IMG/VR virus record: IMGVR_UViG_3300017724_000054
Location: 1 to 29,131 of that record
DNA length: 29,131 bases
Source of the DNA: a virus
Reading direction: 5' to 3' (one strand)
Shown here: positions 6,101 through 29,131 of the stretch, in pieces
Layout of the letters: every line of letters begins with the position of its first letter
Position numbering within the stretch: position 1 is the first letter of the stretch
Notes under the pieces: model-generated
What the model saw: the letters and a program-made list of their open reading frames with translations, nothing else
Databases searched by the model: none
What the model was told of the DNA's origin: nothing
Program-made: the position numbers and the translations under genes

Positions 6101-9100
6101 ATGGTTGCATCAGGTGTACCAACTATTATTTGTCTACCATCTGTAGTAGTTGAAATATCGTAACCAAATTGGTCACTTGCATCAAGTCCTGTTGCAGTAA
6201 AAGTGTTTACAAAATCCCAATGTGTTTTTGCTGATATAAGAACTGTTCCTGTAACTCCACTACCAAGTACAACGTCTGTGCCTACAATAGTATAATCAAA
6301 GAATGGACGTAATAGGACATTGTCATGATACACTGAAAATGAATAAATGTCACTAGCAGTAAACAATGTACTAAAACTAAAGTCTGTAGTTGAAACTGAT
6401 GGAAAATACGTAGCACTCTGTAGTCTAATAATCCGTAACTCATCTCCTTGATTGAGTGCAGTATTAAATGTTATTCTCTGTACTCCACTAACAGTGCTTA
6501 AAGTCCAGTCAACTCCTCCGCCTGCTTGTGGTATATTGTTAACTGTTACACCAATTTGTGTTGTTGCCGTTGCATCACTAGCATTAACAACAATAGTTGG
6601 TTGAATATTAAAAGCAGTAGTCGAACCATCTCCAGTGTATTCTATCTTTTGTGATTGTACTTCAACTTTACTGTAGGCGTATACTTTATTGTCTGCTGGT
6701 GCACTGATGTACATCCAACGTTCATCTGCACTGATTGCTACACTTGTTCCAAATTTGTCTGCATCATTGGTACCGGTGTTAAACAATTGTTGCTGAGTAT
6801 ATGTGCCATCTGCACTGTTTCTGTTGACTGTTAGTGCATAACCTTTGTTGCTATCACTAGCAGGAGCACCTGCTACTGCGTAATCATATTTTCCAACACT
6901 GAGACTTGAGCCAAATCCTGCAAATCCTGTTGTGGTCGGTGCTATAAGTGCAACTTGTATATATGAACCAGAGATATCCTTGCCTAGTGCATATAATCCA
7001 CCTTTACTAGAATTATGTCCAGGTGCCCCAATTAGTAAACCTTGATTTCTTAATCCTTGTGAAACTGTTGTACCATACAAGTCGTTCTCAAGCGGAGTAG
7101 TTGCTTCGAGGTCAGTTGGTGTAGAAAATGGATTGATTTTTTGTAAAACTGTCCATTTGTCATCGCCATTGTTGTCTACCCAGGCTTGATTTCCTGGCAC
7201 AATATTATTTGCAAAACTTAAATTAGCAACATCACTTGCTTGTGCAACACGTACACTTTCAAGAATAAATGCACGACCATCACCTGTTACCGACACTGTT
7301 TCACCAGCAAGACTAAGTGTTAGTGTTATAGTTTTTAACCCCGGAACAGTACCAACAATATAAGCACCATCAACTGACGCACTAAAGTATTTGATTATTA
7401 TTCTATCATTAACAGATAAGCCGTGATTGACATCAAATGTTATAGTACTTGTTTCATTTAGATTGTCAGTAACTGATATCACACTAGCTGGTACCAAATT
7501 GGTTCTAAATATATTCCAATCGTATGAGTTTGCTTTGGCTACCCAAATATTTGTCCCAAGTGATATGGTATCTAAATTAGCAAGTATGTTTGTTAAATCG
7601 TTATAATCAAAAACTTTGATATCAACATCGTCATAGTTTACATAACCAGCTGACGGCAGGCTAACATCTTCTGGAATTGTTGTAACTGTTGGTAAAATAT
7701 TTTTATTTGTAATAGGAAAACTTTGTTTCCAAATATCTTCAACTAATACTGTCTGATTAGCAGTTGATACCTCTTGCGGATCAATAACTGCAATAGTACT
7801 TGGATTACTTAATAATTTACTTTCGTCTGTGCGTAATTCAAAATAACTTCTGTTTGCATTTGCACCATAGATACCACGTTGTATTGCCCAGTTTTCAAAA
7901 ATCTCATACTCTGCTTCTTCTTTGCCAAGATTCGCACTAGTAAAATTTTCTGCAGCAGTGATTGTTCCTTTTGTTCCTAAGAACTGCGAGTACAAGCCAG
8001 CTTGTGAAATATCATCTAGGTTCAAGTTTTGCATGTATTGTCTTGGACGGAATCCAATAAGTCCTAATCCTAGTAGTGTTGAATCCTTCTCAAGATTGGC
8101 AGTGTGTATATCATAATTTTCACGTAGGCTATCTGCTTTGGTTGCAAGGTTAGGCAACAATCCAGTTTGTATTTGTGCATAATCACTCTTGATCCAATCA
8201 GTAAAAACAAATGTTTCACTTGGTGATAGTAATCTTGTTGCACTCCAATATGCATTTTTATAAAGTACAATTTGTCCTTTAGTATAAGAAGTATTTGCTA
8301 CCCATTCTTCTATATTATCTTCATTGAGAATAAAACCTTGTGCATCAAGTGTGCCATTCCAATCAAAAACTGTATTACCATTTAATAATAATCTATTTTG
8401 TCTTGCACCAGTTATTGGTTGATATATCAAATCGTTGAAGATACTAACGTTATCAAATACTATAATATGTTCATATGAAGTAAACCTTGCTGACAACAAA
8501 CTAAATGTTTGATTGTTAACTCCAATTAGTTTCAGTTCGTTACCAAGTCTTTCAACTGCATAATCTTTGCCAAGCAACGGACCAAAGTTTTGGTTTAACA
8601 TTACATCGTTGATATTTTCATTAGCCAGGCTTTCAACAACACTGTTTGGCTTTTCTAATTTTAAAACATTTGCAGCAGGGTTAAGATTGATAATACTTCC
8701 TACAATCCAATCCTGTCCTACCCAGTATAGAAATTCCTTTGCCATTTGTGTCCAGTTAAGAATAACTTGATTCTCTGTGGTATCAAAGGTTAGTCCTTGT
8801 TGTGTTAATAATTGACCGTAACTAACTAAAAAATCAACCACTGCATTTGCAGTTGCAAACACATAACCATAAGGAACTTGAATTACATTTTTTGTAAAAC
8901 TTTCGGCAATACGAACTGTATTTCCATTTACTGTTACGGTACTAAAAGTTCCAGCAATGGTACTTTGTAATATTTCAAAGTAAGGTTTTACTGTTGAATA
9001 ACCCGACACTGACCATCCACCACTGGTTCTTTGAACTGTAACACTTGAATATTGTACTTCAGCAAAACTTGGATTCTGATAGAGAAATAGTTGATAACTT

Positions 9101-12100
9101 TCGTCTGGTAACAACAAACTACTGTTTAAACTGTTTGGTGACGACTTTTCAGAAAATATTTTTAAGTATCCTTGATCACTAAATGCAGCCATTCGATAAC
9201 ACAATCGAATATCCATATTTGCTAGAGTAGCCGTTAGTGCAGTGGTACTATCTAAACCTGTGATTCTATTGTAATCAACAATAAAGTTAATATAACTGTT
9301 TTTGATTGTTCCATTACCATACACGCTTATCACACTTGGATCAATACGGAATCTATCATTATACAAGTATTGGTTGAACTCTGTATTGTATTTCCATAGA
9401 TCTCTGTCAGCAAATAGTGAGAAATATTGTGCAGGTTTTGTTAATGCTAGTAATCGTTGTATTGCGAAAGGGTAGTAACTACTTCGTCTCCAGGCATCCT
9501 CAGTAGGTCCCATGTCTCCTGCTACCCACGATTTTTCAAAGCTGTCTACATCGTAACTGCCAACAATACTATCAATTGGCGGTACTAGATTTCCTTGTGA
9601 ATCAGTTGGGATACATTGTAATAACTCAGGACGAATATACTGTTTTCTTATCACATTTCCAGTTGGGTAAGCAACAATACCTTGTGCCATGTCATTCCAT
9701 AGAACAGTATTACCTGATGTGTATGGAGCTGGTCCGTAAGTTGTTTGCCACCAAGTTGGCTCTACACTGAGTCCTACCATTTCCCATGGACGAGTGTGAG
9801 GGGAATCAGTATCATAAAGATCAAAATATATACCTCTCCAGAAACCTAATAGAGGAACATCAGATAATCTGTTTTCACTTTGACTATAATTCCAAGTAAA
9901 TGCGTTGTCTTTAATATAAGTTTGATTTTTATAAGGAACACGATTCTCACCAACCCACGATAAGAAACTAACATTTAATATATTGTTAACTTCAGTAAGA
10001 GTGTAATCAGTTGTTCTGAACTGTCCTGGGATAACATCAACTGCTTGAAGGGGTGGATCGTATCTTTCAACTTCATTTATTTTGATGTTATTGAAAATTC
10101 TTTTTTCAAATTCTAATAAAACATCATTTCTAAAATCACCGTTTTCAAATGCTACAGTTAAACTACCATCATGTCCTTGTATGACATTTGTTGGTGTTAC
10201 ATAGGTATTGTCTAAGAATTCTTGCGGACGATATATGCTATATAATCCCATCATACTAGGAGTTGCTGGTACATAACTTCCGTAAGTTGTAGAATATTCG
10301 TTAATGGTAATTATGTCACCAATGCTAAGTGTTATCTTTGTACTATTGATTGTAATTCTTGGACCATCGGTTGCTACAGTGTATTCGTGTCCGTCTCCAA
10401 CAAGTATAGTTTGTATACCAGTGCTCTTAGGAGTATAATATACTAATATACCTTTGTAGTTTGCAGAGGTTAAGTCATAACTGTTAAGAGTATCAAATAC
10501 ATAGGTTGTAATTGGTGTTATTGTGTATGTTGTAGTTTCAAAGGTGTTACCACTTGGAATTGCATCTGTCCAATAAAAAGGACTAGATTCGGTTTTTCCT
10601 GCATTAATTCCCAATAGCGTAGCATCAAGTATCTGTGCAGTAGTTTTTCCTGACCAATCATTGTTTGCAACATAATCTAAAATCTTGTTTTTAGTCTTGT
10701 TATATTCTGAACTATTAAATTCTATAGCACGGAAAAATTCGTAGTCTCTGCCATTAATGAAATTTGTCATCATAGTAACTGGCGCACTTTGTTGTAGTAT
10801 TAGATCTCCATAAGGAACAACATTACCTAAATCTCTTACGTTATTGTTACCGTGTATTTTACCTTCGAAGTTTTCTAAATTTTGACAAATACTTTCATAA
10901 TGTGTACGCACTGTACCTAGTGTAAAGTCCTTGCTATTTTCATTCATAGCATTTGATTCTAGGTTTGATGGAATAGTATAAAATGCAATGCTGCTCGGAC
11001 TGTTGCTGAGCACTTGAGCTTCAACTATAGCACCAGTAACCGGTACTGTATCAGGTTGTCCTAATACATTAGGGTTGAAAGTAATTACTGTTACATTATC
11101 ACTATTGGTTGCATATGTGTAAGTGTTTGGAAGAACAAACTGTCCTTCGACAAATACCTTAACTGGAATTTTTGATGTATCACTTAGTACTTCAATATCC
11201 AATACCAAGGGAGCTCCATTATAATCAAAATTGAAACTCTGTCGTTGTGTGTTTGTTTCAAATGATGTTTGCCATCCAAGTAACTTATCAAATGTGCTTA
11301 TAGTATTATACTGTCTAACTGTTCCTGTGTCAATGTTTTTTGTAACGCTAACTGTTCCGTTGACATATACAAATGTGTCGACATATAAATTGTTGTCAAA
11401 AACAATATCACCAACATTGGCAATAGTTAGATATTTTAAAGGCTGGTCAATTATGCTATCAGTGGTGCCTGTCCCAACTGCATAACTAAAAAGTTTAGTT
11501 CCAGCAAAAGTTGTACTTGGATAAACTGTTGTATTGCTAAAACTATAACCACTGCTATCAAATATATCAAATAGTGGTGCTTGATTCACACCAGTTTTTT
11601 GCTGTCCTAATATCCAAGTTGTTCCGTTGAACCAATAAGATTTTCCTTGAAGTGTAATACCTGATGTTACTATAACATTTGTATTGGTTGGAATATCAGG
11701 TGTTGTCAAACTTGCTGGTTGCAAGTCTATAACATCAACACTACTATCGCCAAAATCTACAAAACTCACTGTGTAAATCTTATTACGCACTTCTGCATCA
11801 AGATCGTTTGCAAAAATTACTCTTGATCCAGCAACAAAATCATAACCATCCACACTGTAACCAATTGTGCCGTTAATGTTCGAAAATGCATCTGTTTCTG
11901 TGAAGTCAATGATATCTACTGCAGGTGTTGCAAGTGTTCCATAATTAAAAAGTTTTAGACTTTTTCTGAATTCAAGTATTGGACGTTTAGCACGATTATC
12001 ATTGTTGATTACTAGGGGAATATTATTATAGATAGCAGTTGCTTCGAGCACACCAATATGAAACCATCTATTACCTCTGCTCCAAGCATTTTGATCTATA

Positions 12101-13689
12101 CTGGCTCTGTTTATTATCATATAATCTTGTGCAGTTGGAGCATTATTTGTTGCGTCAAAGTTTCCGTCGTCAAACGCTGTGCTATCAAAAGGTACAGTGG
12201 TTGAAATTGTATATGTTTCTGGAGTAATAAAATTTGTTACTGGAAGAAGTTCGATAGAAGTACCAACTCCTTCGATATAGTATTCTTTATTCTCATAACT
12301 TGTCGGAACAACACTTCCGATAAATTGTACTTTAAGTCCGTTTGTAAAAACAACACCGTTTGGTGATGTATAAACTGTTTTACCAATAATGTCTTCGATT
12401 AAAAGGTCTGATGAATTTGCTTGTTCAACAAGACGAATAACACCAAAATTTCCTTCAGCGTTTCCATCTTGGTAATAAAGTATATCAAGATTTGCAGTGA
12501 TCAATGGTTGTCTTACAAATTCACCTTCTGCATCCTTGTACATAGTTGCACCAGCATATTCAGTTCCGTATTCTATTAGAGTTTTGCTTAGGTTTGCAAC
12601 ATTTTGTACTTTTGTAAGTTCCATAAAAGGACGTAAAGGATCTGCATAGTTAAAGTTTATTCTCCACTGCACATATCTCTCTGGATTTGTTGCCAATGCC
12701 ACACTATTATCAAATCCAGCGTTTGGTATTCCCGGATTGTCTTGATCAAACAGTGTTTCATCAAAAGGAGTAAGTGTTTCCCAACCAGTGTTGGTATCAG
12801 TGGTAATAATAAGTGTTCTGTTTTGCAAATCAGTGATGCCGTCAATGCCACCATGCTCTTCTAAAAATACATCAACAAACACATTGTTAATTTGATTGAA
12901 CTGTAATGTGTCTTCGACTAAATCTGTTGATCCAATATCTGCTAGTGTAAAATAAAAGTTTTGTGCAGTTTTCTCTGGCACAGTGAAAACAACTGTTCCA
13001 ACATCATCACCATTGTTTGTTACTCCTAGTACATCACGCGAACTTTGGTTTGGTTGTTGTGGAAGTACCCCTGACGTTCCTGGTACACTTTGTATGAAAA
13101 ATGGATGACCGCTTGCATTGACGTTAAACGTATATTCGCCTTGACGAACAAATGTTAATGTAGGTAATGCTCCTGATTCTCCTGAAAAAGTATAACCATC
13201 TTGGGTATATGCAACATCAAATGTATCTCTAATTGGAATAGTATTTCCAAATACATCAACGCTATTTGGGCCTTCTGGCACCCAGTAATACTGACTAAAA
13301 TTTACATATTTGTCAAAATCAACAAAAGGATCAAAACTATAATGCTCACTATCAAAAAGTCTATCATCACGTGTAACGTCTGCACCTTGTAACTGAAGAC
13401 TATCAATTATTCCTGGATAGGTTATTGCATTTGCAACAGTGTTGGTATTTGGTGTAAGTTGTACCACTCCAGGTTCAAGTTGGTAATCGGTTCTATTAGC
13501 AGTTGGTTCTAATACATAACTGTCAGATGCAGTAACACCAGGGCCAATCTTACGTCCAATATAACCTTCGGTTGGCTTTAACTTTGGGTTTTGTGTAAGT
13601 TGGTCAAGAGTACTACGAAGCAATTGCTTGTTAGCAGGAGTTTGAAATATTTCTGGTAGAAAGTCTTCTGAGCGAATTCTTTTAGCCAT
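112..13689 (-). CDS. Giant 4525-aa virion/baseplate structural protein (gp7 position)
   Basis: A single open frame takes nearly half the window. It starts with ATG three bases after the gp6 stop; GGAG lies 11 bases upstream, inside gp6. I recognise its N-terminus (MAKRIRSEDFLPEIFQTP, then a conserved block to about residue 140) as a large structural protein type of marine T4-like phages. T4 has gp7 (about 1030 aa) at this place, so a baseplate-wedge or peripheral role is inferred from position, not shown. Visible modules: a cupredoxin-like beta domain (about 183-255); many short beta modules opening with YTGDGSTTxF-like strings; a seven-blade FG-GAP-like propeller (about 2205-2905) with inserted domains; paired GSGY repeats (about 3574-3650); and a C-terminal module with RRGVAGTSAMSH. 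No membrane segment or enzyme motif was seen. Regulation is probably by read-through from the gp6 late promoter. Existence is certain; exact role is not. Confidence 0.9.
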   Translation of the reverse strand: MAKRIRSEDFLPEIFQTPANKQLLRSTLDQLTQNPKLKPTEGYIGRKIGPGVTASDSYVLEPTANRTDYQLEPGVVQLTPNTNTVANAITYPGIIDSLQLQGADVTRDDRLFDSEHYSFDPFVDFDKYVNFSQYYWVPEGPNSVDVFGNTIPIRDTFDVAYTQDGYTFSGESGALPTLTFVRQGEYTFNVNASGHPFFIQSVPGTSGVLPQQPNQSSRDVLGVTNNGDDVGTVVFTVPEKTAQNFYFTLADIGSTDLVEDTLQFNQINNVFVDVFLEEHGGIDGITDLQNRTLIITTDTNTGWETLTPFDETLFDQDNPGIPNAGFDNSVALATNPERYVQWRINFNYADPLRPFMELTKVQNVANLSKTLIEYGTEYAGATMYKDAEGEFVRQPLITANLDILYYQDGNAEGNFGVIRLVEQANSSDLLIEDIIGKTVYTSPNGVVFTNGLKVQFIGSVVPTSYENKEYYIEGVGTSIELLPVTNFITPETYTISTTVPFDSTAFDDGNFDATNNAPTAQDYMIINRASIDQNAWSRGNRWFHIGVLEATAIYNNIPLVINNDNRAKRPILEFRKSLKLFNYGTLATPAVDIIDFTETDAFSNINGTIGYSVDGYDFVAGSRVIFANDLDAEVRNKIYTVSFVDFGDSSVDVIDLQPASLTTPDIPTNTNVIVTSGITLQGKSYWFNGTTWILGQQKTGVNQAPLFDIFDSSGYSFSNTTVYPSTTFAGTKLFSYAVGTGTTDSIIDQPLKYLTIANVGDIVFDNNLYVDTFVYVNGTVSVTKNIDTGTVRQYNTISTFDKLLGWQTSFETNTQRQSFNFDYNGAPLVLDIEVLSDTSKIPVKVFVEGQFVLPNTYTYATNSDNVTVITFNPNVLGQPDTVPVTGAIVEAQVLSNSPSSIAFYTIPSNLESNAMNENSKDFTLGTVRTHYESICQNLENFEGKIHGNNNVRDLGNVVPYGDLILQQSAPVTMMTNFINGRDYEFFRAIEFNSSEYNKTKNKILDYVANNDWSGKTTAQILDATLLGINAGKTESSPFYWTDAIPSGNTFETTTYTITPITTYVFDTLNSYDLTSANYKGILVYYTPKSTGIQTILVGDGHEYTVATDGPRITINSTKITLSIGDIITINEYSTTYGSYVPATPSMMGLYSIYRPQEFLDNTYVTPTNVIQGHDGSLTVAFENGDFRNDVLLEFEKRIFNNIKINEVERYDPPLQAVDVIPGQFRTTDYTLTEVNNILNVSFLSWVGENRVPYKNQTYIKDNAFTWNYSQSENRLSDVPLLGFWRGIYFDLYDTDSPHTRPWEMVGLSVEPTWWQTTYGPAPYTSGNTVLWNDMAQGIVAYPTGNVIRKQYIRPELLQCIPTDSQGNLVPPIDSIVGSYDVDSFEKSWVAGDMGPTEDAWRRSSYYPFAIQRLLALTKPAQYFSLFADRDLWKYNTEFNQYLYNDRFRIDPSVISVYGNGTIKNSYINFIVDYNRITGLDSTTALTATLANMDIRLCYRMAAFSDQGYLKIFSEKSSPNSLNSSLLLPDESYQLFLYQNPSFAEVQYSSVTVQRTSGGWSVSGYSTVKPYFEILQSTIAGTFSTVTVNGNTVRIAESFTKNVIQVPYGYVFATANAVVDFLVSYGQLLTQQGLTFDTTENQVILNWTQMAKEFLYWVGQDWIVGSIINLNPAANVLKLEKPNSVVESLANENINDVMLNQNFGPLLGKDYAVERLGNELKLIGVNNQTFSLLSARFTSYEHIIVFDNVSIFNDLIYQPITGARQNRLLLNGNTVFDWNGTLDAQGFILNEDNIEEWVANTSYTKGQIVLYKNAYWSATRLLSPSETFVFTDWIKSDYAQIQTGLLPNLATKADSLRENYDIHTANLEKDSTLLGLGLIGFRPRQYMQNLNLDDISQAGLYSQFLGTKGTITAAENFTSANLGKEEAEYEIFENWAIQRGIYGANANRSYFELRTDESKLLSNPSTIAVIDPQEVSTANQTVLVEDIWKQSFPITNKNILPTVTTIPEDVSLPSAGYVNYDDVDIKVFDYNDLTNILANLDTISLGTNIWVAKANSYDWNIFRTNLVPASVISVTDNLNETSTITFDVNHGLSVNDRIIIKYFSASVDGAYIVGTVPGLKTITLTLSLAGETVSVTGDGRAFILESVRVAQASDVANLSFANNIVPGNQAWVDNNGDDKWTVLQKINPFSTPTDLEATTPLENDLYGTTVSQGLRNQGLLIGAPGHNSSKGGLYALGKDISGSYIQVALIAPTTTGFAGFGSSLSVGKYDYAVAGAPASDSNKGYALTVNRNSADGTYTQQQLFNTGTNDADKFGTSVAISADERWMYISAPADNKVYAYSKVEVQSQKIEYTGDGSTTAFNIQPTIVVNASDATATTQIGVTVNNIPQAGGGVDWTLSTVSGVQRITFNTALNQGDELRIIRLQSATYFPSVSTTDFSFSTLFTASDIYSFSVYHDNVLLRPFFDYTIVGTDVVLGSGVTGTVLISAKTHWDFVNTFTATGLDASDQFGYDISTTTDGRQIIVGTPDATIGTNTLAGESYIIDRSVERFQVTTASTTTQNFTVTETPTAPIAVTLNGTFLTPTGNANDAQFSVAGSVVTIGTTANPVTLQIGDIIEVETNIFKTIQQFNSTLNGASYYFGQTVDICSTNCSAYIAMPNDSAVVPEGGSVERWINQNRLFGTITGTVANPVLTATDSIRINNYYVTLTGTTVASLVTDIATANLPNITAQSVDGSLQITLENVIAGEQFIKLQVAPGEGTAFADLGLTPWVYAQTITAPIAQVYGHFGTSLKIDDSATTLVVGAPDATASLPTTFDTDTTYFDSRSTTVIDPLDQSGVAYTYNYLNSANSSATNPGKFVFGQQIYDTTMTSLDKFGSAVDYYDGILLVGAPNDDLNDSSGDFGRVTQLTNANKESAWKAIYTQQPIVNASLLNSVFTYNKGNNEVTSYLDFIDPLQGKILGAAQANIDYTGGIDPAAYNTGTVNNYGSQWTTTHLGEMWWDLSTVRFIDYHQDTIEYKARRWGQLFDGSSVDVYQWTKNTVAPADYTGEGEVYTTESYVITSELDSAGTFITYYYYWVKGLLAVSPNKTLSSVGIAQYISNPRSSGISYTAAISPSTISLYNCRNLFSAKDTILHVEFDKIENNDNVHSEYDLITVGNSKSFLGGNLYRKFLDSYCGEDTLGNLVPDATLSVADKYGVSFRPRQSFFINRFLALENYMDRANRIMKLYPISDSKSFKLLNSEEPEPTSASGEWDKRLLTYAELTYQDLRQVAVGYKYLIASDSTQEGLWTIYTVQAEQTLLLSRVQNYDTKLYWSYVDWNGINADFTTYSSANASTYDVKLYSDLLALTDVADGVWATVEANSFGKKEVYQYSTTTSEWTRVFLEDGTVAIDSTVWDYSVGNFGFDVEVFDAQRFSQAPNIETRQILKALNEEIFTTDLQKFRNELLILTFEFIMSEQPAPDWLFKTSLIDVNHKIRDLIEYPIYRRDNQDFVSEYINEVKPYHVQVREFNLRYEGEDTYNGSITDFDLPAYYDSLRGQFVSPILDDSENPKSLSAVPSTSAVWQTFPWSQWYDNYKLVVKSVTVLTPGSGYTVAPQVVVTGDATTQATMTATVNTAGEVIRINLVTAGSGYLTTPTLTISGGNGTGATAITVLEPQQVRDFTTTIAYDRITYTSQVVDWTANTAYTANQLVRFPVPTVGVINASLPQVYKVTANFTSGTAFDPDNYTVVDPSTLDGADRTIGLYTPEPNEPGRELAQVMSGIDYPGVQVEGPNFNQNTGFDVGNFDINPYDNIDIGPEGLPTYDPGILDVIYESQFSDTYLGTRSTDINIEGGGFIDTYSSHAPEELIPGSEFDTLDLKVYTRPGSDWSSDGHGFDIATINVVYNGAGTTLDFTSAMLHPVGIQVLDITTGIVTPPTAYTIDWVNKVVTLGATMPSSVGNSIAVKVYGIGGGSQIYKESIVGTDVVSNVASIPVVFTQIHEMVIFVNGAVITDYTFAASGSFATAITFDSTYGASDWITFVALGATTPTQYSWSTPLVQYITGYDGSSFLDPLTNSLGGTNQANMVVTREGQRLRPPEGIEYTGDGSSAGPYYISTTGISNQGLVSDNDTLVYVDNVKQTLAVDYNLSAWDGSSDRYIEFTVGSMPPANSDIKIFTTTEADYILLGDQLDLRVSAAANAQFGVYTYNDTAQQNILTKVFVGPTTEGVTTGDAFDEVPFDSAEFDKTIGTTIQTNNFALGRLVTSPERLVVTLNGFYIEQTEYSLSTDANDKTTLILDRSILNAADVLAVTMTTNTVVPNSLNFRIFQDMLGNQKLLRMNTKNTTQLTQDVTASADVIYFQNVSKLSEPNLGSNIFGQVMIGAERITYRTRDTGNNTISGLRRGVAGTSAMSHSTGSIASDVGPGEQLPATYQQKTTTDKTNVGDGTTTRFTTSITVPTGLDSTELAESITVTVAGAVLVPETDYTVTSVDTTLTEITLTVAPDPNVEVWFSQVTAKVMYAQGTNTASNGIPLQDQTTAAVLFLKS
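2741..2968 (-). repeat. Paired GSGY beta repeats within the giant protein
   Basis: Two tandem units of about 35 residues share the layout V..pGSGYt..P.v.itG..t.A...a.v...G.v. The first carries TPGSGYTVAPQVVVTG and the second TAGSGYLTTPTLTISGG. This repeat type is common in structural proteins of marine phages and probably forms a small beta-solenoid or trimeric fibre-like element. Confidence 0.6.
4975..7077 (-). other. Seven-blade FG-GAP-like beta-propeller domain within the giant protein
   Basis: Seven copies of the pattern FGxxv...dG..livGAP...G.vy occur in order. They are centred on YGTTVS/LLIGAPG, FGSSLS/YAVAGAPA, FGTSVA/MYISAPA, FGYDIS/IIVGTPD, FGQTVD/AYIAMPN, FGTSLK/LVVGAPD and FGSAVD/LLVGAPN. 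Seven is the blade number of integrin-alpha-type FG-GAP propellers. The blades are not contiguous: separate beta-rich stretches are inserted after blades three, four and five. Such propellers usually bind proteins or sugars, so surface recognition is a possible role, but that is inference. Confidence 0.7.
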
Positions 13690-23066: not shown

Positions 23067-23378
23067 TTAGATTCCTAATACTGATTTCAATGTAGATTCC
23101 TGAGGTAGATATATAGTTGTTCCTGTGACAAAATCTCCTAAAGGATCTTGTAACTGGTTTGGGTTTCGTTGTGAAAATACCCACCAAAGGTTTGCATCTC
23201 CATATAAATCATATGCTAACAAATCTGGTCTTAGGTTGTATGTCTCGTTGATGATTAAAGTAAGATCGTCAATTAGTTTTGGAATTGGTCGGTTAACCAT
23301 CACACCTAAATACTGTTGTTGTAATACTGGTGTTTCAAAATATGCACTGGTTGATGCATACGTATTATCTGTTTCCAT
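23067..23378 (-). CDS. 53: Baseplate wedge protein gp53
   Basis: A short wedge protein of the gp53 type, which has a LysM-like fold and clamps the wedge in the baseplate. The signature lies in the second half: INETYNLRPDLLAYDLYGD, then ANLWWVFSQRNPNQLQDPL and a final TTIYLP strand typical of LysM-like modules. At 103 aa it is about half the T4 length (196 aa), so it is probably the minimal domain. I chose the ATG at 23378, which overlaps the upstream stop as TAATG and has AGGA eight bases away. A GTG two codons earlier sits too close to that AGGA. It is translationally coupled to gp48 and followed one base later by the 1088-aa structural gene. Confidence 0.85.
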   Translation of the reverse strand: METDNTYASTSAYFETPVLQQQYLGVMVNRPIPKLIDDLTLIINETYNLRPDLLAYDLYGDANLWWVFSQRNPNQLQDPLGDFVTGTTIYLPQESTLKSVLGI

Positions 23379-25522
23379 TACCACATTCCTTTCTTAATTA
23401 AATTACCATTTGCATACTCTTTAAGACTAAACTGCTGACTTACTTGTTGTCTGCTTGCAATTGGTAATAAGTTAATTGTCATTGACATCTTAGTAGGAAC
23501 ATAAGTTGCACCTTTGCTTCCAAGGTTTCCTGGGCTAGGTGTAAAAGGTTTTGCACCAACTTGTAACGGTTCTGGTGATCCGTTTAGTGCATTTGAAACT
23601 GCGGTTTTTAATCTGTTCAATGCTGAAAAATTACCATTTGTTGTTGCAGTAGCAAGAGGTTTTTCAAATTGTAGTTGATCATCTCTATTGATATGTCTAC
23701 TACGTGCTCGTATGTAGTTAACGTCTGAAGGTAGGTTGAGGTTAAATTCTGATACCACACAAGGTTGTTCATTAAACTGGTATTCTCCTAACCCTGTAAG
23801 ATAGAGCAATGGCGGTGGTGAGCCACGTTGTGCATCCTGCCCATAGAACATTTTACTTGCACTTTTTAAAAAATGCATACACGCAAGTAGATACTCTGCT
23901 TCTTTTGTATCCTGTGCAGTAAATTCTGCTTGCAGTTGTACTGTTTGAACACTTGATCCTTTGTAAAAATAGTGCATATAGTTACTGTGCGTAGGCTGAT
24001 AGTTGTTGTATTCTGCTCTATATTGTACATCAATTGTTGGTGTGTAAGGAAATATGATTCCGTCTGTGACTGCTAGTGGTGCAAGTATTCCAGGGTTTTG
24101 TGCCTTGTAGAGATAATCAGCTTGTGGAGCTAATCGGAGCTTAACACGCCAATCACCGTCGGCGTTCTTAACACCAGATGCTTCACGCATTTCGTTAATT
24201 GTTTGTTGATTTTGCGCCTTGGTCTTCATTGCTTGTGCGTTAATTGCTTGAGTCTGTGCATTGCTCAGTGCGGCTTGTTCTACTCCGTCAATGCCATCAC
24301 CTTCGGCACCGTCTCCAATATCAGCAACAGGATCATCACCAACTAAACTTTCACCATCATTGTCTACACGATCTTCAGGTGCTAGTATTGGGTCGCCAAA
24401 TTCATCAAACTGAGCAACTTCTGGATCACCAAAGTCGTCAACTCCAAAAGGATTTACTTCTGCAGGTGTAGCAAAGTCACTGAAGTCTTGTTCATCTGCT
24501 ATACCAAAATCATTGGTACTATACTCGTCAAAACTGTCAACTTGTGATTGTGGTTCTACTACATCACCAAATGCATCAAACTGTTGATATTCTTGTATGT
24601 TTGCTGGCGGCGGAGGTGTTGGTCCGGGGCCAAATGCATCTAAACCAGGGTCCTCTGTGCCAAAATTATTGTTACTATATGCACTAAAATCATCTACTTG
24701 TGGCGGGCCAGTAAATTCAGCAAAATCATCAACTTGTGTTATCGGTGGTTGATATTCTTCAAAGCTATCAACCTGTGTTATATTACGACTAGGTCCGCTA
24801 AAGTCATCAACTTGCGTAACTGGATATCCACTAAAGTCGTCAACTGGTACATCAAAACTTTGAACTGGTCTTGCTGGCGGTGGTGCTGGGTACGGATTGG
24901 GAGCAGATGGCTCTTCAAATGCATTACTTGCTTCTATTGCTCGACGTTCTTGATCTCTTAATGCATTTGCTAATCCTGGATCAACTGTATTCTGCGTAAG
25001 CTCTGATGTTCTACTAGTTGGAAAACGTGTGTCTGTTGGTATAGGTGTGACTTCCCTAAAACTTTCTCCATAAGCATCAGCAAATTCAACATCATCGTCT
25101 TGTGTTTGAACCACCGGTGTTGGTATCGGAGTTGCTTGTCTAAAATTTTCGCCATAAGCATCTGTAAAATCTACATCTGAATCTTGTGCTTGCACTGGTC
25201 TTGCTGGTGGTGCAGCCGGAAAAGGATCCTGTTGAGGTCTCTTGCCAAATGCCTGTTCAGCAATAGTACCGCCACCTTGAAATGCACTGCCTGATCCAGG
25301 AGTGTTACGTGCAGTATCAGTTGATTGTGTGTTTTCTGATGCTCTACTCGTTACTGTGCCAAAAGAAGTGTTTCTGGCCGGAGTTGCAGTAGTGTTAATC
25401 ACATAGTTTGGCACATCTTCTTTTGGTATACCTGCTAGTGCGGCCAACCTATTAAGATCAGCACCAGGAAACTGTCTCTGATATGCTGACATCAATGCCG
25501 CGTCTTTAATATTATAACCCAT
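23378..25522 (-). CDS. 48: gp48-like baseplate tail-tube cap protein with long acidic insertion
   Basis: A 714-aa protein, first gene of the late cluster. Its C-terminal half (about 457-714) carries the conserved part: WRVKLRLAPQADYLY, IIFPYTPTIDVQYRAEYNNY, QPTHSNYMHYFYKGSSVQT, a HFLKSASKMFYGQD helix, GSPPPLLYLTGLGEYQF and a final PTKMSMTINLLP strand. I associate this with the gp48 tail-tube/baseplate junction family. T4 gp48 is 364 aa; here about 300 residues of acidic, proline-rich repeats (about 115-415) separate a short helical N-terminus from the conserved domain. The ATG at 25522 has AGGAG five bases upstream and a late box 18 bases upstream. An upstream in-frame ATG at 25606 would overlap the divergent promoter and has no such support. 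The stop overlaps the gp53 start. Confidence 0.75.
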   Translation of the reverse strand: MGYNIKDAALMSAYQRQFPGADLNRLAALAGIPKEDVPNYVINTTATPARNTSFGTVTSRASENTQSTDTARNTPGSGSAFQGGGTIAEQAFGKRPQQDPFPAAPPARPVQAQDSDVDFTDAYGENFRQATPIPTPVVQTQDDDVEFADAYGESFREVTPIPTDTRFPTSRTSELTQNTVDPGLANALRDQERRAIEASNAFEEPSAPNPYPAPPPARPVQSFDVPVDDFSGYPVTQVDDFSGPSRNITQVDSFEEYQPPITQVDDFAEFTGPPQVDDFSAYSNNNFGTEDPGLDAFGPGPTPPPPANIQEYQQFDAFGDVVEPQSQVDSFDEYSTNDFGIADEQDFSDFATPAEVNPFGVDDFGDPEVAQFDEFGDPILAPEDRVDNDGESLVGDDPVADIGDGAEGDGIDGVEQAALSNAQTQAINAQAMKTKAQNQQTINEMREASGVKNADGDWRVKLRLAPQADYLYKAQNPGILAPLAVTDGIIFPYTPTIDVQYRAEYNNYQPTHSNYMHYFYKGSSVQTVQLQAEFTAQDTKEAEYLLACMHFLKSASKMFYGQDAQRGSPPPLLYLTGLGEYQFNEQPCVVSEFNLNLPSDVNYIRARSRHINRDDQLQFEKPLATATTNGNFSALNRLKTAVSNALNGSPEPLQVGAKPFTPSPGNLGSKGATYVPTKMSMTINLLPIASRQQVSQQFSLKEYANGNLIKKGMW
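24419..24850 (-). repeat. VDDF/VDSF acidic repeats in gp48
   Basis: The segment encodes at least six variants of a short unit: PVDDFSGY, QVDDFSG, QVDSFEEY, QVDDFAEF, QVDDFSAY and QVDSFDEY, followed by looser NPFGVDDFGD and QFDEFGD copies. The spacing is irregular, about 10-20 residues for the first five. Aromatic plus acidic residues at fixed places suggest a short linear binding motif repeated along a disordered chain. Confidence 0.75.
25034..25186 (-). repeat. Tandem DAYGE repeat pair in gp48
   Basis: Two adjacent copies of about 24 residues: one with DVDFTDAYGENFRQATPIPT, the next with DVEFADAYGESFREVTPIPT. They are similar at the DNA level too, which suggests a fairly recent tandem duplication. 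Confidence 0.75.
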
Positions 25523-25539
25523 CTGATCTCCTATAGTCT

Positions 25540-25547
25540 TATTTATG
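25540..25547 (-). promoter_or_regulatory. T4-type late promoter for the baseplate cluster (CATAAATA)
   Basis: The minus strand reads CATAAATA, the same one-mismatch box as upstream of gp6. A start about six bases downstream gives a short leader that still contains TAGGAG before the gp48 ATG. This would be the main late promoter for gp48, gp53, the 1088-aa gene and gp5. Confidence 0.65.
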
Positions 25548-25573
25548 GAAACCAAAAAGTACGCAGTTAATGA

Positions 25574-25602
25574 TTGACTTTTGATAAGTAATGTTGTATA
25601 AT
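25574..25602 (+). promoter_or_regulatory. Near-consensus sigma70 promoter for the gp55-gp47-gp46 transcript
   Basis: TTGACT (25574-25579) and TATAAT (25597-25602) are separated by exactly 17 bases, 11 of 12 consensus positions. The expected start near 25609 leaves a leader of about 24 bases holding AAGGAG before the gp55 ATG. This suggests direct use of host RNA polymerase, that is, early or middle expression. Confidence 0.8.
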
Positions 25603-25632
25603 ACACAATGTATTAAGGCAAAGGAGAATTAT

Positions 25633-26526
25633 ATGCCACCGGTGAAAGCACCTAAGAAAGTAAACTATCTAAACAATAGAGACATACTCAAAGAAATTCA
25701 CAAAAGCAAAAGCACTTACTGTTCGTATCTTGAAAAAGAGTATGCACAGTATGATATTATTGTACCTAGTGTGGACAAGATCAATCAACGTAGTGTTGCA
25801 GAAGCAAGACGCAACAAAGCAGATCGTATCAAAAGACTAACTGGTGAGATACTCGATCCAACAAAACTAAACAACCAAGAACTTGTGTTTCGTGTTACCT
25901 GTTGGGATCATATTCCAATGGTTCCAAAAAAACTTACCAAAGCACAAGAAAAGAAAAAAAGCAAACTAGAAGAACTGCTAGAGATGGATGATGTTGATGT
26001 TGAAGATGATGGATTGCAAGAACTGATGAGCGATGTTGAGCAGGATCTTAACTATATAAAACTAAACTTTCCTCCTTTCTGGCATTATATGATTGATGAA
26101 AATCGTGTGCCGTATATTGTTGGCAAATCACACTGGCTCGGCGGAATGGAAAACGGATACTTCTCAAAAGACCATGGCAAGATGACTGACAAACTAGCAC
26201 ACATGTTTATTAAGTTGTGTGAACGTTATGCAACACGTTCAAACTGGCGTGGCTATACATACAATGAAGAGATGCGTGGACAAGCATTGTTGCAGTTAAG
26301 TCAAATTGGACTACAGTTTGACGAAAGCAAGAGTCAAAATCCATTTGCATACTATACTGCCGCCATCACAAACAGTTTTACAAGAGTATTAAACATTGAA
26401 AAGAAAAATCAAAACATACGTGATGATATACTTGAACAAAACGGACTAAATCCAAGTTGGACAAGACAGTTTAACAATTCACCAGACGCAAAAAAACTAC
26501 AACCAGCAGAAGCAGCTAAAAAATAG
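25633..26526 (+). CDS. 55: Late-transcription sigma factor gp55
   Basis: Homologue of T4 gp55, the small sigma that directs host RNA polymerase to TATAAATA late promoters. The ends match the family: VNYLNNRDILKEIHKSK at 10-26 corresponds to the T4 N-terminal YVNNKELLQAI, and residues about 202-260 (SNWRGYTYNEEMRGQALLQL, FDESKSQNPFAYYTAAITN, then IEKKNQ) correspond to the sigma region 2-like core FSGYTQSWKQEMI ... NPHAYITQA. Length is 297 aa against 185 in T4, because about 150 residues (about 40-190) are inserted, including a charged stretch rich in E, D and K. The clamp-binding hydrophobic tail of T4 gp55 (near DFLYE) is not seen; this protein ends in EAAKK. The ATG at 25633 has AAGGAG six bases upstream. 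An in-frame ATG at 25591 lies inside the promoter and is rejected. Confidence 0.87.
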   Translation: MPPVKAPKKVNYLNNRDILKEIHKSKSTYCSYLEKEYAQYDIIVPSVDKINQRSVAEARRNKADRIKRLTGEILDPTKLNNQELVFRVTCWDHIPMVPKKLTKAQEKKKSKLEELLEMDDVDVEDDGLQELMSDVEQDLNYIKLNFPPFWHYMIDENRVPYIVGKSHWLGGMENGYFSKDHGKMTDKLAHMFIKLCERYATRSNWRGYTYNEEMRGQALLQLSQIGLQFDESKSQNPFAYYTAAITNSFTRVLNIEKKNQNIRDDILEQNGLNPSWTRQFNNSPDAKKLQPAEAAKK

Positions 26527-26535
26527 GACGCACAT

Positions 26536-27549
26536 ATGGGTTTGTTTAAGAAAGCTCTAGTGTTTACAGACATCCACTTTGGCATGAAAAGCAATAGTAT
26601 CATGCACAACCAGGACTGTGAAAACTTTGTAGAGTGGGCAGTACAACAAGGCAAAATACACAACTGCGAAACTGCTATCTTCATGGGGGACTGGCATCAT
26701 CATAGAGCAAGTTTAAGTTTGCAAACTATGAGCCACAGTCTAAGAGCATTAGAAAATCTTTCAAGAAGTTTTGATATAACCTATTTCATAACTGGCAATC
26801 ACGACTTATACTACAGAGACAAACGTGACATATACAGTTTTGAATGGGCAAAGCATATTCCTAATCTAAAGATTTGCAACGATTGGTTTGAGCAAGATGA
26901 TGTTATACTGTGCCCTTGGTTAGTAGGCGATGATCACAAGCAGATAAAAACTGCAAGTGCCCAGTATATGTTCGGACACTTTGAACTTCCGCACTTTAAG
27001 ATGAATGCCATGGTTGAAATGCCCGATCACGGTGAAATCAAATCAGAACACTTTCAACAGTATGGTACAGTGTTCTCAGGACACTTTCATCTGCGTCAAC
27101 AGAAGAACAACATAAACTATATTGGCAATGCATTTCCACATAACTTTTCAGATGCAGGCGATGATCAACGTGGTTGCATGATACTCGAATGGGGCAAAGA
27201 GCCAGAATACATTGCTTGGCCAGATCAGCCATTGTACAAAGTGTTAGATCTTTCACAGGTGATTGACTATGCAGACACAATACTAAAACCAAACATGCAC
27301 GTTAGAGTTAATTTGGATATTGAAATATCCTATGAAGAAGCAAACTATATCAAAGAACAGTTTGCAACCAAGTACAAACTGCGTGAGATGGCACTTATAC
27401 CAAACAAACGCAGTGCATTAGAAGAAGAAATGCAACCAGGCGATATCAAATTTGAAAGTGTTGACCAAATTGTTACAGAACAAATCATAAACATTGATTC
27501 AGAATTCTATGATAACAAACTGTTGTTGGAAATATACAGGAGTCTGTAG
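26536..27549 (+). CDS. 47: Recombination endonuclease subunit gp47 (Mre11/SbcD-like)
   Basis: A 337-aa metallophosphoesterase, the nuclease partner of gp46 in recombination-dependent replication and host DNA breakdown. All metal-binding motifs are visible: DIH at 12-14, GDWHHH at 51-56, GNHD at 87-90, GHFE at 147-150 and GHFH at 182-185. Length equals that of T4 gp47 (339 aa). The ATG has an AGGA seven bases upstream that overlaps the gp55 TAG stop, so the two are coupled in one transcript. Its own stop touches the TTG of the next gene. In T4 gp47 and gp46 are close neighbours; here two small genes separate them. Confidence 0.95.
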   Translation: MGLFKKALVFTDIHFGMKSNSIMHNQDCENFVEWAVQQGKIHNCETAIFMGDWHHHRASLSLQTMSHSLRALENLSRSFDITYFITGNHDLYYRDKRDIYSFEWAKHIPNLKICNDWFEQDDVILCPWLVGDDHKQIKTASAQYMFGHFELPHFKMNAMVEMPDHGEIKSEHFQQYGTVFSGHFHLRQQKNNINYIGNAFPHNFSDAGDDQRGCMILEWGKEPEYIAWPDQPLYKVLDLSQVIDYADTILKPNMHVRVNLDIEISYEEANYIKEQFATKYKLREMALIPNKRSALEEEMQPGDIKFESVDQIVTEQIINIDSEFYDNKLLLEIYRSL

Positions 27550-28101
27550 TTGAACATTTCGAATGTATTTGTTAATGCACTTTCGGCTAAATTTAACATA
27601 ATTGATAAATTTGCGTTACCTTCTGTAGACCATGATTTTCAGTTGGTTTCTGATAGGTTGTTGCAAACAAAAAAACAAGTGTTTGCACACAATGACCGTT
27701 ATATTATCAGTCATTTAGACACAGACTATTACCTTCCAAGTTGTCCTTATGGATTGAGTATGTTTAATTTGGTTAGAACGTTTTTACACAATGATATATC
27801 ATTGAATATATTAATACTAATTACAAACCATAAGAATATAAAAAAAGAATTTGAGATACTGATACCTACAGAGATGCAAGAACATAATTTTCCTACTATC
27901 ATAGACAATTGTTTAACTGTTGATAATACAGTAAGAGTAGGATTGAACCAACATGAATGCAACGTTGACGAATCATCAATTGTCAAACATGGTGTATCTA
28001 TGTTTGGGGTAAACCGACTACATAGAAATATGCTATACAATATGCTGGTAGAAAGGAATTTACTAGATGCATATGCAGTTTCTTACAAAGGAAATAACTG
28101 A
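27550..28101 (+). CDS. Unknown protein, likely N-terminal half of a split family
   Basis: A 183-aa protein starting with TTG immediately after the gp47 stop. AGGAG lies seven bases before the TTG, and no in-frame ATG occurs before about residue 71, so TTG is the best start. Visible segments are RYIISHLDTDYYLPSCPYGL (about 50-69), a hydrophobic NILILITNH strand and, near the C-terminus, NRLHRNMLYNMLVERNLLDA. The HR-x-xL-x-x-xL-x-x-x-x-LL pattern reminds me of the middle part of a roughly 360-aa phage protein family of unknown function whose second half looks like the next gene. The stop overlaps the next start as TGATG. The region seems more AT-rich than gp47. No enzyme motif is recognised with confidence. 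Confidence 0.75.
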   Translation: MNISNVFVNALSAKFNIIDKFALPSVDHDFQLVSDRLLQTKKQVFAHNDRYIISHLDTDYYLPSCPYGLSMFNLVRTFLHNDISLNILILITNHKNIKKEFEILIPTEMQEHNFPTIIDNCLTVDNTVRVGLNQHECNVDESSIVKHGVSMFGVNRLHRNMLYNMLVERNLLDAYAVSYKGNN

Positions 28102-28634
28102 TGTTTCATCGATTATACACAAAGCCATTTACTCGGATCAACGAAGCATGGAACTTTAGTAACCAATTTGACTCGTCTGTAGGAGAAACACATCGAGATC
28201 CTCTTATAAAAGGCAAAACAAACGAACATCAAAAAAACAAAAATATTTTCTGTGATTTTTACAAATATTTTGCAATTGATGTTGTAACCGAAACAGTTTA
28301 TAACTATCCTTATCCACAAATTACAGAAAAAACCATAAGACCTATCGTGCATAAAAGGATGTTTGTTATTGTAGGTTCGCCAGGGACATTGACTCAAATA
28401 CAAGAAAAAGGCTTTAGAACTTTTGCACCATTTATCAACGAAGAATACGACACTATTCAAGATCCACACAAACGTATGGAATGTATTGTTGAGGAACTTA
28501 CTCGTATAAGCAAGTTTTCGATTGACGACATACGTGAAACTATGTTACAATACAAAGATACTTTGAAACATAACTATGATCATTATCATTGGTTATGCAA
28601 TAACGAAATTCAGCAGATTGTAAACAAAATATGA
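28101..28634 (+). CDS. Conserved protein with TEKT...GSPG...GF.TF...YD motif, possible C-terminal half
   Basis: A 177-aa protein. Its core is VTETVYNYPYPQITEKTIRP (62-81), MFVIVGSPGTL (87-97), then GFRTFAPFINEEYD (104-117) and a final helical region with CIVEELTRISKF. I associate this layout with the C-terminal part of uncharacterised, glycosyltransferase-like proteins seen in marine phages and in surface-polysaccharide loci; catalytic function is unproven. The ATG overlaps the previous stop (TGATG) and has AGGA eight bases upstream, so translation by coupling is well supported. The stop overlaps the gp46 start as ATGA. The first 50 residues look like a linker rather than a complete N-terminal domain, which fits a split from the preceding gene. 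Confidence 0.75.
   Translation: MFHRLYTKPFTRINEAWNFSNQFDSSVGETHRDPLIKGKTNEHQKNKNIFCDFYKYFAIDVVTETVYNYPYPQITEKTIRPIVHKRMFVIVGSPGTLTQIQEKGFRTFAPFINEEYDTIQDPHKRMECIVEELTRISKFSIDDIRETMLQYKDTLKHNYDHYHWLCNNEIQQIVNKI
28522..28551 (+). promoter_or_regulatory. Possible internal promoter upstream of gp46
   Basis: TTGACG, 18 bases, then TACAAT with a TG extension (TGTTACAAT). Each box has one mismatch from sigma70 consensus. It lies within the preceding coding region, 80 bases before the gp46 ATG. In AT-rich DNA this could arise by chance. Confidence 0.3.
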
Positions 28635-29131
28635 TTCAAATCAAAGACTTGACAGTCAAAAACTTTATGAGTGTGGGCAATGCTACACAGGCTATCAACT
28701 TTGATCGACAGGACCTCACACTGGTACTTGGAGAGAACATTGACTTAGGTGGTGATGGTTCACGTAACGGAACTGGCAAGACCACAATCATCAATGCACT
28801 AAGTTATGCACTCTATGGTGAAGCACTCACAAACATACGTCGTGACAACCTCATAAACAAAACCAATTCAAAAGGCATGATGGTTAGTTTAGACTTTTGT
28901 GTTGGTGAACAATGCTATCGTATTGAACGTGGACGCAAGCCCAATGTACTAAAGTTTTACATCAATGACAGTGAACAAGAAGCAGATGACTATGCACAAG
29001 GTGATAGTAGAGAAACACAAGGTGCTATACTAAAACTGTTGAGCATGAGTCATACTATGTTCAAACACTTGGTAGCATTGAACACATATACCGAACCGTT
29101 TTTGAGTCTAAAACAAAACGATCAAAGAGAG
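28631..29131 (+). CDS. 46: Recombination endonuclease subunit gp46 (Rad50/SbcC-like), N-terminal part
   Basis: The first 167 codons of gp46, the SMC-like ATPase partner of gp47; the gene runs off the right edge. It opens with MIQIKDLTVKNFMSVG, the usual first strand of this family, followed by a Walker A motif in an extended loop, GDGSRNGTGKTT at 41-52, and then INALSYALYGEAL. Further on are IRRDNLINKTN and LNTYTEPFLSLKQND, typical of the N-terminal ATPase lobe up to the Q-loop region. The coiled coil, zinc hook and Walker B would lie beyond the window. The ATG overlaps the previous stop (ATGA). A GG-rich ribosome site is not obvious, so it may depend on coupling. Confidence 0.95.
   Translation, partial: MIQIKDLTVKNFMSVGNATQAINFDRQDLTLVLGENIDLGGDGSRNGTGKTTIINALSYALYGEALTNIRRDNLINKTNSKGMMVSLDFCVGEQCYRIERGRKPNVLKFYINDSEQEADDYAQGDSRETQGAILKLLSMSHTMFKHLVALNTYTEPFLSLKQNDQRE

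Follow-up and report, generated by a model that had tools for sequence, protein, structure and literature searches.

Two overlapping genes between gp47 and gp46 of a phage genome as the pieces of a probable GT-B-like glycosyltransferase

The two overlapping genes found between gp47 and gp46 in the virus record analysed here (IMG/VR IMGVR_UViG_3300017724_000054, taken whole at 29,131 bases and hereafter called the window) are the two pieces of what is, in relatives at the same place, a single protein, and this two-piece form is a stable fission. We consider it rather probable that their products, A and B, are the subunits of a GT-B-like glycosyltransferase whose core is complete only on assembly, and that the pair is an exchangeable cassette. 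Two- and one-piece forms stand at the same genomic position, they are colinear and conserved, and the exchange of the pair is that of a unit. The features of the locus are the following.

26536..27549, + strand: gp47 (SbcD-like nuclease subunit), 5′ flank; phrog_100, E 7.3e-58; Metallophos, E 3.4e-4
27538..27542, + strand: Shine-Dalgarno match of ORF A, AGGAG, from the sequence; -6.9 kcal/mol
27550..28101, + strand: ORF A, 183 aa, N-terminal half, its TTG start abutting the gp47 stop; from the sequence and homologues
27550..27954, + strand: aa 1-135 of A, its N-terminal module, modelled as alpha/beta (m67c582e05def, mean pLDDT 87.5)
27955..28098, + strand: aa 136-183 of A, its C-terminal segment, which bears the NRxHR motif and is homologous to a wide one-piece family; from hhalign and the invariant R156 and R159
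28087..28092, + strand: Shine-Dalgarno match of ORF B, AAAGGA, lying within A, from the sequence; -5.6 kcal/mol
28099..28103, + strand: TGATG, the stop of A and start of B with one base in common; from the sequence
28101..28634, + strand: ORF B, 177 aa, ATG start, C-terminal half; from the sequence and homologues
28284..28331, + strand: aa 62-77 of B, ending in TEK, with E64, E76 and K77 invariant (36/36 rows)
28631..29131, + strand: gp46 (SbcC-like subunit), 3′ flank, running past the window end; phrog_77, E 1.1e-39

The original prediction, of an overlapping gene pair between gp47 and gp46, was exact in its coordinates, in the lengths of 183 and 177 aa and in the TGATG junction. A late sigma factor gene (phrog_12791, E 1.4e-76) lies 5′ of gp47, the end of B runs into gp46, which starts at 28631, and the opposite strand of the record encodes baseplate and virion structural proteins. 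One of these is a single ORF of 4525 aa (112-13689, - strand; virion structural family phrog_10938, E 4.9e-299), and another a virion structural protein of 742 aa (23378-25606, - strand) with short QVDDF-type repeats, the number of which varies among close relatives (cf. L001:1-1545 and L002:2-1600). Since isolate phages offer no gp47 closer than about 49% identity (that of large Pseudomonas phages), and contigs carrying relatives of the pair reach 344 kb (L025), the window phage may be a member of an uncultivated lineage of large phages.

A and B occur as separate adjacent ORFs in 28 rows of our comparison, the window included (IMG/VR protein searches, with classification by A and B profiles), at identities to the window of 23-93% for A and 30-96% for B. 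Viral counts here and below are among the loci examined, from scans giving the best 80 loci each; L205, cut by a contig end, was left out of the split and fused rows, and near-identical copies (e.g., L020, L027) were left out throughout. Two independent assemblies (L001 and L002) share the two-ORF layout, with A at 93 and 92% and B at 96% identity. In 26 of the 28 rows gp47 lies upstream and gp46 downstream, with an extra gene intervening in two of them (L197, before A; L026, after B); L005 has gp46 only, at a contig edge, and the pair of L015 stands without either flank in a 58.9-kb record that gives no gp47 match. Among the loci examined, complete short A ORFs have B just downstream in 31 cases out of 31, and complete short B ORFs follow directly on an A-like ORF in 30 out of 30, with L077, L265 and L292 included in these counts. 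Since the layout recurs in this way and every complete short half has its partner, the two-piece form is a stable fission, and not decay or an assembly error.

The existence of fused relatives is the only point in favour of an indel in sequencing or assembly, or of a recent decay, having broken one frame, and we give this reading next to no credence. Against it stand not only the same two-ORF layout in all 28 rows, but also overlaps of the kind typical of adjacent genes and the fact that A and B share a frame in none of the 28. In addition, dN/dS is well below 1 in both halves (17/17 pair values): among five of the 28 rows it is 0.11-0.36 for A (in seven of ten pairs, the other three being saturated) and 0.11-0.23 for B (in ten of ten). 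When the phage records of eight split pairs were searched, 15 further family members were found in four of them, each of these being an uninterrupted frame of 319-441 aa. For this clade, then, indel and decay are refuted, and the functional split that had been read from the window is upheld by purifying selection in both halves and by the lack of orphan halves.

The junction itself takes several forms. A and B overlap by 4 nt in 15 rows, by 1 nt in five, by 8 nt in two, by 23 nt in two and by 20 nt in one, and are 1-2 nt apart in the remaining three. As the frames of the two differ in every row, in most of them by -1 (21/28), a programmed frameshift might be thought to yield a full-length A-B protein, but the relation is +1 in 7/28, the spacing varies between an overlap of 23 nt and a gap of 2 nt, B keeps a start of its own, with a Shine-Dalgarno match in the window, and inspection of the window junction by eye shows no canonical slippery heptamer; we regard such a frameshift as very unlikely. 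The ribosome site that the original prediction gave to each half is present in the window, at the energies listed above, without being universal among the 14 pairs scored: a Shine-Dalgarno match of -5 kcal/mol or below precedes A in five and B in seven, one of these seven (L022) at a doubtful TTG start, against a background of 8.4% of 2263 ATGs.

Single proteins that match A and then B, in that order, were found at eight loci (L204, L207, L209, L214, L215, L227, L156 and L216; 364-396 aa), all eight lying between gp47 and gp46, and a ninth (L259) came later from the gp47 scan. The reading of A and B as one protein in two pieces is thereby borne out, and the opposite case, of homologues that are always separate, does not hold. 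The one-piece form is also that of a much wider family. A search of viruses with the B profile gave 435 related stretches, the best 80 of which were analysed, and in the first set of 181 distinct B-domain ORFs 149 were complete single ORFs of 295-591 aa, 17 were cut by a contig end and 15 were short; all 15 short ones adjoin an A-like ORF, 14 as pairs of the gp47/gp46 type and one in L077. In bacterial and archaeal genomes nine family loci were found, whose members are single ORFs (one cut by a contig end) and in several of which members stand beside further members. One-piece members are often in tandem or nearly so, up to three per locus, beside sugar genes or unnamed genes (L028, L034, L043, L045, L050, L173, L179). 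L077 has a second, distant member of the family split into two overlapping ORFs (1166-2351), adjoining two intact one-piece copies (2302-3522 and 3515-4669).

Pfam, PHROGs, NCBIfam and PADLOC have no entry that names the A/B family. Matches to phrog_13415 (E 0.028) and NBD94 (E 0.054), to phrog_37996 (E 2.8e-4, unknown function; in one of 44 fused members) and to PHA_granule_1 (in three of 36 B-type rows, best E 0.0012) were set aside as weak. Among 50,697 isolate phage records there is no match for B, for the B of L005, or for L012, L204 and L053, and A gives a single chance-level pair (E 0.5). By sequence, the PDB has nothing for the fused family and three chance rows for B.

As to where the break falls, R156 and R159 in A, and E64, E76, K77, F88, E114, Y116, D117, R125 and N158 in B, are invariant in all 36 rows, fused and split. 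The wide family, taken without L156 and compared by hhalign with profiles of the split-only A and B, aligns to both in order, to A at E 1.2e-8 (probability 95.6) and to B at E 1e-45 (probability 100), with gp46 and gp47 as negative controls at E 0.23-0.49. Within A it is aa 136-183 that give the signal (E 1.4e-7), and not aa 1-135 (E 0.039), and the fused members have some 15-26 linking residues at the position of the break. Judging from these profiles, the break seems to lie within the conserved core of a viral family that is usually in one piece, and not at the edge of the N-terminal module of A, which refines the earlier reading by placing it within a core rather than between domains. In the model of the fused L156 protein the core strands are 147-153 and 176-180 on the A side and 265-271 and 296-299 on the B side, so that the core sheet would require both chains.

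The front of A (aa ~5-110) also begins four proteins of 503-526 aa in the same interval of other phages (L269:1938-3515, L274:8005-9513, L286:8011-9585 and L288:4075-5601). The first of these has SPASM and radical SAM domains (Pfam), and the other three are alike by sequence. Since this N-terminal module is found there without B, it is not specific to the enzyme discussed here; and since the core signal lies at aa 136-183 and the front is common to radical SAM/SPASM proteins, A would appear to consist of a separable front module and the first piece of the conserved core, with B supplying the rest.

In the tree of joined A and B the split rows L211 and L213 fall among fused rows, and a single clade of all splits is rejected by the AU test (p 0.0009), L216, L022 and L227 being on long branches; parsimony on the 80-row tree gives three changes between split and fused, two of them forced by strongly supported branches. 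The simpler assumption is that the change went towards fission, as the 43 wide-family rows of the tree are without exception one-piece, though the A/B trees, being midpoint-rooted, leave room for re-fusion. One could also take A and B for two distinct enzymes, or for an enzyme and its helper, that merely stay together, and the fused proteins for later fusions. The module that A has in common with radical SAM proteins would suit this, as it implies that modules get recombined here, and so would unrooted trees in which the three changes could include a re-fusion; however, what is one conserved core in the wide one-piece family lies partly in A (aa 136-183) and partly in B, and this, together with the one-piece state of that family throughout the tree, makes separate enzymes an unlikely origin. 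On the gp46 tree there are six changes of split/fused label, against a mean of 7.4 for shuffled labels (49 of 500 shuffles being as low), and since this count is close to that of shuffled labels the split does not track phage descent as read from gp46.

The pair and its flanks have different histories of divergence. The window and L021 are 98% identical in gp47 and 96% in gp46 (167 aa), yet 38% in A and 46% in B, and the split L198 and the fused L216 have both flanks at 97% identity (102 aa of gp47) with the enzyme at 32% and 44%. DNA identity is 0.78-0.93 in the flanks (25691 to 27490) and 0.47-0.69 across 27591 to 28590, with a sharp fall at the gene edges. Over 24 of the 28 rows (leaving out the window, with its partial gp46, the near copy L189, and L015 and L005 with a flank missing), the distances of A and B correlate with each other (rho 0.79; partial 0.79 given gp46 and gp47), as do those of gp46 and gp47 (rho 0.66), whereas A or B against gp46 or gp47 gives rho of -0.07 to 0.03. 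Because A and B diverge together, and not with gp46 or gp47, the pair seems to have been swapped between phages as one unit. Very fast divergence would also uncouple the pair from its flanks, but L198 and L216, where a split pair in the one stands against a fused gene in the other, speak rather for an exchange through recombination in the flanking genes.

The best 80 loci of the gp47 scan have gp46 in reach in 79 cases, of which 32 have no room between the two genes, three have a gap in which no ORF attains 90 aa, and 44 have cargo: five split pairs (three on contigs already counted), one fused gene, four A modules before radical SAM, and 34 others. One of these intervals (L250) has a sulfotransferase (Pfam), and the cargo of L258 has no Pfam match. 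The gp47-gp46 interval is, then, a cargo site, and the pair of the window is one of its occupants. The original prediction had found a polysaccharide-type gene odd in a recombination operon, and this oddness is reduced, since the interval also receives radical SAM/SPASM, sulfotransferase and other genes. That the cassette and its flanks are uncoupled suggests that exchange at this interval takes place under selection.

Turning to the fold, the model of the fused L156 protein has a mean pLDDT of 70.5 and a pTM of 0.76, with pLDDT below 50 in parts that include 22-76 and 224-253. Against 996 chains compared by VIA it gives Z of at least 8 in 55, with GT-B enzymes at the top: T4 beta-glucosyltransferase (1c3j, Z 9.8, rmsd 5.5, 262 aligned) is followed by T4 alpha-glucosyltransferase (1y6f, Z 9.6) and by TarM and EXT2 (Z 9.1), which all lie within one unit and so amount to a tie. 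Some of the listed rows are receptor fusions, which contain a glycogen synthase domain. The best Foldseek row is alpha-1,3-fucosyltransferase 2nzw (E 3.7e-3, prob 0.97), no match of this model reaching E 1e-3 or below. With the model of the window's A alone, neither a glycosyltransferase nor a clear match to any fold comes up (best VIA Z 5.6), and the Pfam glycosyltransferase families have no match in A, B or the 44 fused members. Among the neighbours of the fused genes, Pfam finds a UDP-glucose dehydrogenase (E 2.5e-22) and an NAD-dependent (NDP-sugar) epimerase (E 1.7e-42) beside L156 and a formyltransferase domain protein (E 8.8e-14) beside L214, and no match for the neighbour of L204. The ‘polysaccharide-type’ label of the original prediction is made plausible by the GT-B-like model and by the sugar genes adjoining L156, and, as far as the model goes, the two-piece enzyme is most likely a glycosyltransferase.

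Its substrate might be the phage's own DNA, glycosylated against restriction as by the T4 glucosyltransferases. These two enzymes do top the structure list, and the pair does sit among DNA genes; but they lead the other GT-B enzymes by less than one Z unit, and the interval carries varied cargo in other phages, so that we find DNA glycosylation an improbable role.

For the two-subunit glycosyltransferase that we prefer, a predicted fold, a physical association of the chains, catalysis and a role are inferred as follows. A would bring the N-terminal alpha/beta module and the first strand-helix-strand of the core, with NRxHR, and B the remaining core, with TEK, GFxTF and ExYD. Their overlapping genes would be coupled in translation on a single message, and the two products would assemble, the sugar-donor site being formed from both chains. 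The pair would move between phages as a cassette flanked by the conserved gp47 and gp46, and its role, at a guess, would be to change a glycan on the surface of the host cell or the virion. It is tempting to go further, although tentatively and with the chances rather against us, and to speculate that a glycosyltransferase was cut more than once at about the same point through its sugar-donor core, such that neither chain binds the donor alone; that this obligate pair serves as a swappable specificity cassette in the recombination operon of uncultivated phages, in the manner of exchanged surface-antigen loci; and that the front of A is a shared adaptor, which also steers the radical SAM enzymes of the same spot. 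Either way, a viral family that had no name (i.e., without a Pfam match, and without an isolate-phage match for the six members queried) gains a testable function, and, since one- and two-piece forms occur naturally at one genomic position, what gene fission does to an enzyme can be tested directly.

The open-licence literature that was searched has no report of a split phage glycosyltransferase, nor of cargo between gp46 and gp47. Pelagimyophages, which are marine and T4-like, are described as having many glycosyltransferases of the LPS type, read as altering the host surface (PMC7029224); according to the main text of that paper, where ‘gp47’ does not appear, these lie mainly in a host recognition cluster. 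Among known enzymes, the GT10 alpha-1,3-fucosyltransferases resemble the pair in providing the best Foldseek row and in one local profile match that aligns the TEK motif. Membership of GT10 was considered and set aside, as Glyco_transf_10 (PF00852) is absent from the Pfam scans and the hhalign values (E 0.21 for the fused family and 0.028 for B, with a small GT10 profile built from usable ORFs of six out of ten loci) are not significant. The T4 alpha- and beta-glucosyltransferases resemble it as the top VIA rows for the fused L156 model, by a lead that is a tie with other GT-B enzymes, and differ in that the PDB, to which they belong, gives no sequence match for the fused family.

The nearest parallel in organization is Alg14/Alg13, a two-subunit UDP-GlcNAc transferase of GT-B type made of an N- and a C-terminal polypeptide, with naturally fused MurG-like relatives, in the account of PMC8993221. 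Like it, A and B are a pair of chains for which there exist fused homologues that keep their order (28 split and eight fused rows). Unlike it, they give no Alg13, Alg14 or MurG Pfam match, neither in the window proteins nor in the 44 fused members, and they are overlapping phage genes exchanged as a cassette; and whereas the Alg14/Alg13 break, in the same account, parts the acceptor from the donor domain, that between A and B seems, from the profiles, to lie within the conserved core. According to PMC10937113, GT-B domains that are expressed apart are able to assemble in bacteria. Split genes as such are known from T4-related phages, where PMC2988022 describes 43A/43B, nrdA of Aeh1 and T4 gene 60, the split NrdA and 43A/43B being reported as active; in these, as would be the case for A and B, one enzyme comes from two adjacent phage genes. 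The splits in T4 relatives, as that paper presents them, carry homing endonucleases or an untranslated spacer, whereas A and B are without an insert in 28/28 pairs, with spacings that extend from 23 nt of overlap to a gap of 2 nt, and, unlike the T4-relative splits, their fission recurred.
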